Shown: positions 41,145 through 56,979 of the stretch, piece by piece
Numbering within the stretch: position 1 is the stretch's first letter
Layout: the number at the start of each line of letters is the position of its first letter
Assembly: GCF_022024115.1 (NCBI RefSeq)
Contig: NZ_CP091792.1
Coordinates: 2,604,001-2,668,000, forward strand
Direction of reading: 5' to 3'
Length of the DNA: 64,000 bases
Source of the DNA: Prevotella communis
GTDB lineage: Bacteria; Bacteroidota; Bacteroidia; Bacteroidales; Bacteroidaceae
Made by a program: the position numbers and the translations under genes
The notes under the pieces: generated by a model
Told to the model about the DNA's origin: nothing
Databases searched by the model: none
Seen by the model: the letters and a program-made list of their open reading frames with translations, nothing else

Positions 41145-41179
41145 ACATTAAAGGTTAAACATTAAAAATTAAGGATTAA
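41145..41179 (+). repeat. Degenerate 7-nt tandem repeat, 5 units
   Basis: Units ACATTAA, AGGTTAA, ACATTAA, AAATTAA, GGATTAA fill most of the 44-nt spacer and end one base before the start codon at 41181. Confidence 0.85.
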
Positions 41180-41180
41180 G

Positions 41181-42908
41181 ATGAGTGATGTAAAGTACGA
41201 TATGGCAGGCCGTCCGTTGCCTGATAGAACATACCCTGCAGAGACAGGAAGTGAAGGCTACCACTTATGGGAACGCACTCTGGGCGATTGGCTGGAATAC
41301 TGGGCAGAGACAACCCCAGACAAAGAATATATTGTTTACTCAGACCGCGACCTGCGCTTCACCTGGTCGCAATTCAACGAGCGCGTGGATAATCTGGCAA
41401 AAGGTCTGATATCCATCGGCGTAAAGAAAGGCTCCAACGTAGGTATCTGGGCCACCAACGTGCCCGACTGGCTCACCTTCCTCTATGCCACAGCCAAGAT
41501 TGGCGCCGTGCTTGTGACGGTAAACACCAACTATAAGCAAAACGAGCTGGAGTATCTCTGTAAGGACTCCGATATGGAGGTGCTTTGTATTACCGATGGT
41601 ACATGGGATTGTAACTACGTCGATATGACCTACACCATGTTGCCCGAGCTGAAAAACTGCGAACGCGGTCATCTGAACAGCAAGCAGTTCCCCTACCTGA
41701 AGAATGTGGTCTATATCGGTATGGAGAAATACCGCGGCATGTACAACACCGCCGAACTGCTGCTTCTTGGTCAGAACATAGAAGACGGTGTGCTCAACGA
41801 GATGAAGAAGAATGTCAGCTGCCACGACGTGTGCAACATGCAGTACACCTCTGGTACCACGGGCTTCCCCAAGGGCGTCATGCTGACCCACTACGGTATC
41901 TCCAACGACGGTTATTTCACGGGCGAGAACATGGGCTTCACCCAGGACGACAAGCTCTGCGTCTGCGTGCCCCTGTTCCACTGCTTCGGCGTGGTGCTCG
42001 CCACGATGAACTGCCTGACCCACGGCTGCACGGAGGTGATGGTCGAGAAGTTCGATCCCCTCGTGGTGCTCGCCTCTATCCATAAGGAGCGCTGTACGGC
42101 CGTCTATGGCGTGCCCACCATGTTTATTGCCGAGCTCAACCACCCCATGTTCTCCATGTTCGACCTCAGTTGTCTGCGCACGGGTATCATGGCAGGCTCA
42201 CTCTGTCCTGTGGAACTGATGAAGCAGGTCAGCGAGAAGATGTTCATGACCATCACCAGCGTGTACGGCCTCACAGAGTCGTCACCCGGTATGACCCAGA
42301 CCTGCCTGAACGACACCTTCGAACAGCGTTGCACCACCGTAGGCCGCGACTTCCCCTTTGTCGATGTCAAGGTGCTCGACCCCGAGACCGGCGAGGAGTG
42401 TCCCGTTGGCGTGCAGGGCGAGATGTGCTGCAAGGGCTTCAACGTGATGAAGGGCTACTACAAGAACCCCACCGCCACCGCTGAGGTTATCGACAAAAAC
42501 GGCTATCTCCACTCAGGCGACCTGGGCGTAAAAGACGAGCAAGGCTTCTACAAGATCACAGGTCGTATCAAGGATATGATTATCCGCGGTGGTGAGAACA
42601 TCTATCCCCGCGAAATCGAGGAGTTCCTCTATCATATGCCCGGCATCCGCGATGTGCAGGTAGCAGCCGTACCTTCCAAGAAATATGGCGAGGCCGTAGG
42701 AGCCTTCATCATTCTGGAAGAAGGTGCCAAGATGACTGCCGAGGATGTGCAGCTCTTCTGCCGCGGCAAGATTGCCCGCTACAAGATTCCAAAGTACGTC
42801 TTCTTCATCGACCAGTTCCCCCTCACCGGCTCTGGCAAGATTCAGAAGTTCAAGTTGAAGGAAATGAGCCTGAAGCTCTGCGAGGAGCAAGGCATCGAAG
42901 TGGTATGA
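41181..42908 (+). CDS. Acyl-CoA synthetase (AMP-binding family)
   Basis: 575 residues, soluble. ANL-superfamily motifs: P-loop YTSGTTGFPKGV at about 222-233, SVYGLTESSPGMTQ (A5), YLHSGDLGVKDEQGFYKITG with the adenylate-binding Asp, GGENIYPREIEEFLY, and the C-terminal catalytic Lys region FPLTGSGKIQKFKL. Activates a carboxylic acid as acyl-AMP and transfers it to CoA; size and motifs fit medium/long-chain fatty acyl-CoA synthetases, but the true acid is unknown. It lies between the XRE-cupin regulator and a secreted hydrolase (4-bp overlap), hinting at uptake and activation of an acid released from an ester (inference). Confidence 0.92.
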   Translation: MSDVKYDMAGRPLPDRTYPAETGSEGYHLWERTLGDWLEYWAETTPDKEYIVYSDRDLRFTWSQFNERVDNLAKGLISIGVKKGSNVGIWATNVPDWLTFLYATAKIGAVLVTVNTNYKQNELEYLCKDSDMEVLCITDGTWDCNYVDMTYTMLPELKNCERGHLNSKQFPYLKNVVYIGMEKYRGMYNTAELLLLGQNIEDGVLNEMKKNVSCHDVCNMQYTSGTTGFPKGVMLTHYGISNDGYFTGENMGFTQDDKLCVCVPLFHCFGVVLATMNCLTHGCTEVMVEKFDPLVVLASIHKERCTAVYGVPTMFIAELNHPMFSMFDLSCLRTGIMAGSLCPVELMKQVSEKMFMTITSVYGLTESSPGMTQTCLNDTFEQRCTTVGRDFPFVDVKVLDPETGEECPVGVQGEMCCKGFNVMKGYYKNPTATAEVIDKNGYLHSGDLGVKDEQGFYKITGRIKDMIIRGGENIYPREIEEFLYHMPGIRDVQVAAVPSKKYGEAVGAFIILEEGAKMTAEDVQLFCRGKIARYKIPKYVFFIDQFPLTGSGKIQKFKLKEMSLKLCEEQGIEVV

Positions 42909-55534: not shown

Positions 55535-56924
55535 CCGACTCGCCTAAGCGCACCAGGAACTTTGGATGGAGGCGTTTAGGCAGGGCGGACAGTGGTGTGG
55601 ACTGACGGGCATCACGCAGGAAAATATCCTTCATCTGTAATGCCACAGCCTCGTCGTACACAAACGTATTAGCTTCAAAATTATTCAGGAACGAACGGAA
55701 ATCGATGTTCGTAGAGCCGCATGTCGTGGTATGGTCATCACATACCAGCGTCTTGGCATGCAGAAAACGCGGTTCGTAGAGAAGTATCTGGATACCAGCC
55801 TCTTGCGCCTCACGCAGATAGGACCTGCTACCCCACTCTACAAACCAGCCATCGGTCTTGCGCGGCACCATCACCCTGACATCAACACCCGATGCCACGG
55901 CCGTCTTCAGCGCAAAGAAGATGGTCTCCGTAGGCAGGAAATAGGGCGACTGGATATAGATATAGCGCTTGGCCGACAGGATGATGCGCAGATAGCCCTG
56001 CATAATCTCGGGATAAGGTGCCAGGGGCGCCGACGTGACGGTCTGGAGGAGCGCGCCGTGAGCATCTTCCGCCGACTTGGGATAATAGCGCTTGTCACTC
56101 AACTGCGTGCGGTCCACGAAATACCAGTCGATGAGGAAGGCACGCTGCAGGGAGTAGACACCACTACCCTCGATGCGCATCATCGTGTCGCGCCATCCTC
56201 GCTGATGACGGCCCTTCACATAGCGCAAGGCGAAATTCATGCCACCGATATAGCCTACCCTGCCATCGACGATGAAAATCTTACGATGGTTGCGGTAGTT
56301 CATCTTACGTGCAAACGTGGGGAAACGTACGGGCATGAAGGCTTCCACCTCGACTCCCTCGATACGCATCCGCTCAAAGAAACGGTTGTCCACGCTCCAG
56401 CATCCCACGGCATCATAGAGCACACGCACCTCCACGCCCTCGCGAGCCTTGGCTATCAGGGCATCAGAGATGAGTCGTCCCAGGGCATCGTCCTCAAAGA
56501 TATAGACATCAATATGGATATGGTCCCGCGCAGAGGCGATGTCACGCAGCAGCGACGGGAAGAAATCATAGCCATCCGTCAGGATCTCCACCTTATTATT
56601 ATTAAAGGGAAGGGAGAAACTCTGATTGATGAACAGGTCGATAACCGGACGACTGAGTTCCGGCAACTGGAGATCGCCCTGTTCGATGAAGCCCGACATG
56701 GAACGGCGGGTGAGCTGATCCATGGAACGCTGGCTGACCATGCGTTCACGACGGGTGTTAACGCCCAGAAACAGATAGGCGATGATACCCACCACAGGCA
56801 CGAAGAAAATCACCATACCCCATGCCATCGTCTTCGAAGGCTGACGATTATCCAGGACTACATGAATAATCGTTGCTACCACGATAATCTGATAGATGAG
56901 GAGTATGATGCTGTGCCAGGACAT
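55506..56924 (-). CDS. cls: Cardiolipin synthase (phospholipase D type)
   Basis: 472 residues. Two N-terminal membrane segments (WHSIILLIYQIIVVATIIHV; MVIFFVPVVGIIAYLFLGV), then two PLD HKD motifs: NHRKIFIVDGRVGYIGG (about 211-227) and HAKTLVCDDHTTTCGSTN (about 388-405). Makes cardiolipin from two phosphatidylglycerols at the inner membrane. Last gene of the dnaG-queD-queE-cls series, after a spacer that is a 7-nt repeat array. Confidence 0.95.
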   Translation of the reverse strand: MSWHSIILLIYQIIVVATIIHVVLDNRQPSKTMAWGMVIFFVPVVGIIAYLFLGVNTRRERMVSQRSMDQLTRRSMSGFIEQGDLQLPELSRPVIDLFINQSFSLPFNNNKVEILTDGYDFFPSLLRDIASARDHIHIDVYIFEDDALGRLISDALIAKAREGVEVRVLYDAVGCWSVDNRFFERMRIEGVEVEAFMPVRFPTFARKMNYRNHRKIFIVDGRVGYIGGMNFALRYVKGRHQRGWRDTMMRIEGSGVYSLQRAFLIDWYFVDRTQLSDKRYYPKSAEDAHGALLQTVTSAPLAPYPEIMQGYLRIILSAKRYIYIQSPYFLPTETIFFALKTAVASGVDVRVMVPRKTDGWFVEWGSRSYLREAQEAGIQILLYEPRFLHAKTLVCDDHTTTCGSTNIDFRSFLNNFEANTFVYDEAVALQMKDIFLRDARQSTPLSALPKRLHPKFLVRLGESVMRLLSPLL

Positions 56925-56930
56925 AGGGGT

Positions 56931-56979
56931 TGAGTTTTGAGGTTTGAGATTGGAGGTTGGAGATTGGAGGTTGGAGATT
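56931..56979. repeat. Degenerate 7-nt tandem repeat, 7 units
   Basis: Units TGAGTTT, TGAGGTT, TGAGATT, GGAGGTT, GGAGATT, GGAGGTT, GGAGATT (plus-strand reading) in perfect register; spans nearly the entire queE-cls spacer and touches the queE stop codon. Confidence 0.92.

Follow-up and report, generated by a model that had tools for sequence, protein, structure and literature searches.

In cyanobacteria, heptanucleotide repeats are known under the name STRR. The present analysis deals with tandem arrays of 7-nt units in Prevotella communis and starts from a window of 64,000 nucleotides (positions 2604001-2668000 in a genome of 3.57 Mb), in which five spacers between genes, lying from 41145 to 56979, had been predicted from the sequence alone to consist almost wholly of such arrays. 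As degenerate simple-sequence repeats with a heptanucleotide unit, which part of Prevotella has in unusual abundance, these arrays are of a known kind, beyond which they go by occupying loops within genes, by using many units and by having a tag beside some of them. Among the described cases, all drawn here from excerpts of the cited papers, the GGGAATC repeats of Xanthomonas and the GGGGAYT repeats of Nostoc are heptanucleotide simple repeats (LSSR) (PMC4692102). Like the Prevotella arrays, they have a period of 7, partly degenerate units, many sites and a varying unit number (PMC4692102, PMC4679880); unlike them, they use one unit family each and are under-represented in coding regions (PMC4692102), whereas 266 Prevotella arrays comprise 98 distinct consensus units, 124 of the arrays being coding and some tagged. 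It is thus the period, not the sequence, that the arrays have in common, as the original prediction had it. Its further view that no equivalent was described in Bacteroidales was too strong, given the TAACTGA heptamer repeats of five Bacteroidetes (MacGregor 2015, PMC4679880), which also occur in Beggiatoaceae and cyanobacteria, many of them just upstream of start codons, with 24 sets in or overlapping coding regions, and for which mobility was considered (PMC4679880). Those repeats resemble the present ones as heptamers with Bacteroidetes hosts, some of them in genes, and in the mobility considered; they differ by their single unit sequence and by lying, within genes, mostly at the ends (PMC4679880), whereas the Prevotella arrays occupy internal loops with many units. 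TAACTGA dimers numbered 0 both in a 464-kb sample of the own genome (the window and twenty 20-kb stretches) and in a set of 79 loci (1.38 Mb) from relatives. Among the papers listed from the open-licence PMC literature (at most 20 per listing), none gave an account of a case like the present one, whether of heptamers or of palindromic repeats, for Prevotella or Bacteroidetes.

Other described systems share part of these features. In the P6b stems of the Nostoc tRNA-Leu intron, degenerate heptads likewise pair as a hairpin and vary in copy number, at a single intron locus (PMC3488679), whereas the Prevotella hairpins are dispersed in genes and spacers. Rickettsia palindromic elements lie in frame within unrelated genes and form defined families of ~150 bp (PMC10969869); here, too, insertions keep the frame in genes unrelated to one another, and relatives have such sites empty, a likeness in behaviour, the Prevotella arms being 7-nt arrays of varying sequence. 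Finally, the REP/REPIN sequences (GTAG type, RAYT transposases) carry a short tag, GTAG, and form dimers that mostly lie 20-100 bp apart, in one kind with the tags on the inner side (PMC3733652); their copy number is patchy. Correspondingly, a fixed many-copy tag, GCGGYAGCAAATT, stands beside the repeat in a subset of the arrays only (59 copies in the own genome), and inverted doublets occur. The differences are that the body is a heptad array instead of a conserved imperfect palindrome, that the tag also has the form GCAG, and that no transposase link was shown.

The comparison of lag 7 with lags 5, 6, 8 and 9, named beforehand in the original prediction, gave a strong lag-7 excess both in the own sample and in the relatives' loci. 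With segments counted at a score of at least 12, the own sample holds 46 lag-7 arrays, as against 0-8 at each of lags 4-6 and 8-13, and none was found in one order-2 Markov copy of this sample or in a first-order copy. In the relatives' loci, 269 arrays at lag 7 stand against 36 at lag 8, 32 at lag 9 and 1-16 at the other lags of 4-13, runs of N being left aside (274 with the 5 N runs; N runs probably also explain the 2 segments of the Markov copy). The window itself has 8 such segments, and fifty order-2 Markov copies of it have 1 in all. All five predicted arrays exist: their lag-7 identity is 0.75 (41145-41179), 0.68 (49671-49708), 1.00 (54056-54083), 0.78 (54921-54976) and 0.83 (56931-56979), compared to 0.13-0.45 at lags 4-6 and 8-11. 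Nevertheless, the array at 49671 is not in register throughout, its first CTCTTAA copy lying 17 nt upstream of the contiguous part and out of register, and that at 54056 is not intra-operon, since it is flanked by divergent genes (52613-54028 on the minus strand, helicase-like, and 54119-54922 on the plus strand, DUF3822). Besides, the arrays at 41145 and 49671 are not rare singly, since their identity is reached at 33 and 52, respectively, of the ~21,320 window positions (in-array positions counted); that of the 54056, 54921 and 56931 stretches is reached at only 1, 3 and 0 positions.

In terms of density, arrays number 96 per Mb in a 664-kb own sample, in which overlapping stretches (L025 with L146 and L147; L026 with L152 and L223; L027 with L231 and L232) count ~38 kb twice, the duplicates being removed for the tag census of 79 arrays and the unit survey described below. 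Two relatives' sets have 185 and 206 per Mb, other genera of the family 26 (21 loci) and other families of the class 16 (39 loci). Within the genus the density is patchy: 10 of the 20 sampled genomes, some of them the same assemblies as named loci, lack arrays in 9.6-19.9 kb, and the others reach up to 519 per Mb. Outside arrays, the excess of two-copy runs over one Markov copy was 43, 40, 30 and 20 for k = 6, 7, 8 and 9 in the own sample, and 77, 83, 84 and 43 in relatives; rows of this count split by coding class are unreliable, the hexamer caller behind them being trained on the P. communis genome. A simple bias towards 7-nt duplication was rejected on the ground that these runs do not peak at 7, and the preference for seven therefore seems to arise as arrays grow, spread or persist.

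The closest named match to the window's rsmD is that of Prevotella communis E15-14 (protein 99% identical, DNA 98.5% over 19 kb), which served as comparison strain for array length and tag-site presence. When 464 kb of the own genome was set against 400 kb of E15-14, anchoring succeeded for 40 own arrays and failed for 7; length was equal for 22 of 29 intergenic and 10 of 11 coding arrays, and all eight changes were of whole units (7 nt in four, 14 nt in two and 21 nt in two), the one coding change being of 21 nt. Two of them read as net 6 and -4, owing to separate indels visible in the sequences. The comparison of unit numbers among strains, as the original prediction had proposed, thus shows lengths differing by whole units only, and supports the slippage that it had named as a possible generating process. 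In the same line, among orthologues that both carry an array, 20 of 46 indels of at least 5 amino acids are multiples of 7 amino acids, compared to 270 of 1437 other indels, the orthologue pairs being mutually non-independent. For three E15-14 arrays, the surrounding stretch is diverged and the own genome has other sequence or another array there, two further E15-14 arrays with the own genome differing likewise were seen in a separate strain comparison, and 4 E15-14 arrays were not anchored. Arrays with periods of 11 and 22 nt are also slightly in excess in the own 464 kb (5 and 10, respectively), and many of these lack an anchor in E15-14.

That the arrays belong to operon spacers, as had been expected from the window, is not supported: at a score of at least 14, 132 are intergenic, 124 lie in called coding sequence and 10 at edges, 86% of the sequence being called coding. 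Coding arrays, which lie in frame inside housekeeping genes, account for 9 of 36 arrays of the own sample and for 115 of the relatives' 230, fractions that are approximate, genes beyond the window being predicted by a small hexamer caller trained on the P. communis genome. At a score of at least 11, and with the window included, arrays are carried by 12 of 15 QueE-like, 21 of 62 helicase-like, 15 of 50 PLD-family, 12 of 46 DnaG-type primase (57928-59889) and 5 of 77 RsmD orthologues, by 1 of 60 for DUF3822 and by 0 of 15 for the PTPS family. Families in the window come from profile matches, and the names QueE, RsmD and cardiolipin-synthase type presumably apply to its genes. In alignments, coding arrays occupy the same loops across species with differing peptides and units, these loops being short or empty elsewhere. 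For an RsmD that carries 26 additional residues (94-119), the AlphaFold model has a mean pLDDT of 82.2, with blocks of 61, 48 and 55 in residues 91-120, values of 41, 56 and 65 over the first 30 residues and more than 90 for most of the remainder, so that this protein is predicted to retain its core. DUF3822 lies upstream of rsmD in 77 of 80 loci, 14 with an array, 26 overlapping (24 by 4 nt) and 37 with other spacers. A further type of short repeat (CCCTCTCC), rich in G/C and resembling a palindrome, seems to lie in frame in genes of L064, L065, L072 and L098, as read from peptides, and seems present in the rsmD junction spacers of L070 and L101.

The tag, for which the reversed control gave 0 in the own genome, was found as GCGGYAGCAAATT in 65 of 149 genomes of the genus, with up to 67 copies (reversed control at most 2), and its T form, GCGGTAGCAAATT, has 51 copies in the own genome (reversed control 0). 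In the own sequence examined, each of the 13 tag contexts is followed 3' by TTCACT-type heptads, with a short insert intervening in two; in relatives' loci, where a tag site common to L255 and L069 was counted once, heptads of several sequences lie 3' of the tag in 12 of 16 distinct contexts and 5' in 2 of 17 places. In addition, tag number correlates with array density in 17 genomes (rho 0.55, p 0.02). Ten of the 51 GCGGTAGCAAATT tags make 5 divergent pairs within 60 nt, none is convergent and 3 pairs have the same direction; the doublets are inverted, with the tags facing the loop. More generally, an inverted partner within 160 nt (score at least 16) was found for 58 of 529 flanks, pairs counting from both arms, compared to a direct partner for 21 and to 5 in a random-array control. 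Five doublets, chosen not random, fold at z -8.4 to -13.3, and no hairpin folding was seen for two single window arrays. Heptad doublets in L089, L101, L110, L126 and L128 have another inner motif, GGTATTCTC or similar, which is perhaps a second tag.

As to the units, predicted to be unrelated in sequence, many do differ, including within the own genome, where many differing ones coexist; identical units nonetheless recur within and between genomes above the letter-permuted level. Among pairs of arrays more than 1 kb apart within one relative's locus, 11.2% of 464 have identical units (letter-permuted 0.6%), compared to 1.5% between relatives (letter-permuted 0.3%) and 2.9% of 625 in the own sample.

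Sequence comparison points to insertion or replacement by tag and heptads in two genes. Among eight sequences of the SBF-family gene, L062, L063, L065, L089 and L106 have no element, and L064 has tag and heptads without the second repeat, which in the window and in L067 stands between the two. In the FecR_C (DUF4974) gene at 2935712, the own strain has an ordinary linker at the place where E15-14 has tag and heptads, the two being nearly equal in length. With the own protein as query, a linker of the ordinary kind is present in all of the best 120 of 1308 homologues; with the E15-14 protein, a tag-type peptide, seen at the protein level only, is present in 28 among the best 120 of 1399, one of them with a further insert, each set leaning to the allele of its query. 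FecR_C linkers of the metagenome proteins P0145 and P0150 carry other in-frame inserts, and several repeats may land in this linker.

Taken together, these data would be accounted for, with a probability of about 0.6, by heptanucleotide simple repeats undergoing two processes, dispersal by copying and local unit turnover. In the former, short heptad stretches, some headed by the tag GCGGYAGCAAA and some being inverted doublets with tags towards the loop, would be copied to new places, arriving by insertion or by replacing local sequence, and would survive where they do little harm, that is, in promoter regions, at stop-start junctions and in protein loops with the reading frame kept. In the latter, slippage or unequal recombination would lengthen or shorten resident arrays by whole units, the step being 7 nt in intergenic arrays and, on the evidence of few cases, 21 nt in coding ones, and the unit sequence would drift meanwhile. 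Copying is strongly suggested for the tagged kind, and the shared units extend it, by inference, to the untagged arrays; copying would then be the source of the arrays, most of which would be neutral passengers. A more tentative extension, put at somewhat below even odds, is that they form a class of dispersed elements in which the register is kept instead of a fixed body: a short tag and a 7-nt repeat with a freely drifting unit, able to form hairpins and shared per genome, which within one lineage would enter spacers and, in frame, many genes, even primase and rRNA methyltransferase orthologues.

Several observations weigh against dispersal by copying. A tag-like sequence (at most 2 mismatches) stands 5' in the expected sense beside only 12 of 79 own arrays, 3 having it antisense on the 5' side, and 1 in sense and 1 in antisense on the 3' side, compared to 0.8% of random places; the dispersal of the untagged majority therefore rests on the shared vocabulary, part of which could come from composition or convergent slippage. 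Of 7 tag sites per strain's compared stretch, 5 are kept, 1 is absent and 1 is not anchored, so that turnover is slow, and both FecR_C alleles are widespread, so that this event is not recent, its direction being deduced from the repeat nature of the element. The three diverged E15-14 stretches have net differences of 87, 13 and 3 nt, target-site duplication at arrays was not established, and where only one orthologue has an array just 70 of 579 indels of at least 5 amino acids are multiples of 7 amino acids, which means that gains are not whole three-unit blocks. The enzyme search for copying covered Y1_Tnp, whose counts did not follow array density (rank rho 0.15, p 0.52) nor clearly tag number (rho 0.24, p 0.14, 40 genomes), and whose presence made no significant difference to density (mean of 126 per Mb in 14 genomes with and 17 in 6 without, p 0.16); Y1_Tnp was thus rejected as driver. 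Three REP-type tyrosine transposase-like genes lie within 15.4 kb of L012 (73-957, 5450-6283 and 14568-15377), and match NF047646 at 58-65 bits, for a family cut-off of 80; no heptads of score at least 9 were found in the flanks examined (up to 700 nt per side, one side 72 nt), and arrays lie 1-3 kb from one of these genes.

Local slippage alone, through a property of polymerase or repair favouring 7-nt steps, an idea put forward for heptanucleotide repeats of bacteria by Mrazek and others in 2007 (via PMC4679880 and PMC4692102), would let the arrays originate independently from chance duplications and make tag and vocabulary side issues. The whole-unit changes between strains speak for it, as does the fact that, in the 39 loci of the class outside the family, lag 7 again leads among lags 4-13 (11 arrays, compared to 7 at lag 12 and 5 at lags 8 and 9), and as do the 180 of 266 consensus units that lack C or G on one strand, a strand asymmetry lowering self-structure. 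However, besides the two-copy runs that do not peak at 7, slippage alone predicts neither a one-sided tag nor an array allele replacing unrelated sequence, and would make in-frame arrays unexpected, single-unit steps shifting the frame; it is held to be unlikely, though with a real share of the odds. That the tag is directly followed by heptads of differing sequence, that units are shared within a genome and that a native sequence of nearly equal length was replaced in the FecR_C gene would also fit templated extension by a dedicated element enzyme, in which an RNA or DNA template with a 7-nt register is copied at breaks or nicks, somewhat like telomerase, leaving a genome-specific unit behind the tag. 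The many differing units of the own genome speak against this reading, which is held to be highly improbable.

A selected function, whether as regulator-binding sites, translation stops between genes or spacing, is the least probable of the explanations considered. It could draw on the many stop-start spacers wholly occupied by arrays, on the several A/T-rich arrays adjoining TTTGCA, which is presumably a promoter-like motif, and on the purine strand following the gene direction in 46 of 77 co-directional spacers; against it, the G-rich strand runs with the genes in 39 of these, opposes them in 31 and does neither in 7, and the gene-direction bias is weak. Stop codons on either strand are contained in 68% of the consensus units and in 62% after letter permutation, on which account a regulatory or stop-codon function was rejected. 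In the same way, the suggested spacing function gains no support at the rsmD junction, which is array-free in 63 of 77 loci, being a 4-nt overlap in 24, and where the units differ between the loci having arrays.

If dispersal by copying with local turnover holds, part of the enzyme loop variation in rumen Prevotella would stem from repeat arrays and not from ordinary point change, and array length would be usable as a strain marker. The question of why seven is preferred has stood since a survey in which heptanucleotide repeats ranked first among the long-unit classes of most bacterial genomes examined (Mrazek 2007, via PMC4679880), and the tagged FecR_C and SBF alleles provide defined sites for asking it, and for asking how such repeats start.

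The features of the window are collected below; beyond the five arrays first noted, it has three in coding sequence and two tagged elements, at 51496-51569 and 57555-57588.

Table. Heptad arrays and tagged elements of the window (positions within the window)
Feature	Position	Strand	Remarks
Heptad array NNNTTAA, 5 units	41145..41179	+	Fills spacer from gene 40381-41136 to gene 41181-42908
CTCTTAA copies	49671..49710	+	SurE-LpxB gene spacer; contiguous array only 49688-49710 (3.3 copies)
TAAGAAT array, exact (AAGAATT x4 at 54056-54083)	54049..54084	+	Between divergent genes
GANGNNN array	54918..54979	+	DUF3822-rsmD spacer; E15-14 has one unit more
KGAGNTT array	56930..56979	+	Between PLD-family and QueE-like genes, both minus; E15-14 has two units fewer
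Heptad array, in frame, GH115 gene (open reading frame 4756-7308)	6237..6272	+	
Heptad array in AAA/UvrD-like helicase gene	53376..53407	-	Array in that stretch in 8 of 62 aligned sequences, window included
Heptad array, in frame, QueE-like gene	57359..57386	-	Array in that stretch in 6 of 15, window included
Tag GCGGTAGCAAATT, in frame, gene 50820-51857 (SBF, sodium bile acid symporter family)	51557..51569	-	
Second repeat, CCCTTCGGTAGCAAGCG type, GTAG-containing	51517..51556	-	Between tag and heptads of SBF element
Heptads TTCACTN of SBF-gene element	51496..51516	-	
Tag GCGGTAGCAAATT and TTCACTN heptads	57555..57588	+	Fills spacer from gene 57584-57919 (PTPS family) to QueE-like gene

The genes flanking the first array, both on the plus strand, encode a helix-turn-helix and cupin protein and an AMP-binding enzyme, and the E15-14 copy of this array is equally long. 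In the relative L062, the alignment spans the SurE-LpxB junction with a gap at the array position. At the QueE-like stretch, the relatives having arrays are L062, L067, L089, L097 and L108; the PTPS-family and QueE-like genes overlap, by match coordinates, in L062, L065, L066, L089, L097 and L108. A search of Rfam at the gathering threshold gave 0 matches in window positions 40000-60000. Finally, window positions 14852-16453 (~1.6 kb), at which the strain alignment breaks, match at 99% a 1.6-kb stretch of E15-14 that is also matched by two adjacent stretches elsewhere in the genome, and are probably a mobile element.

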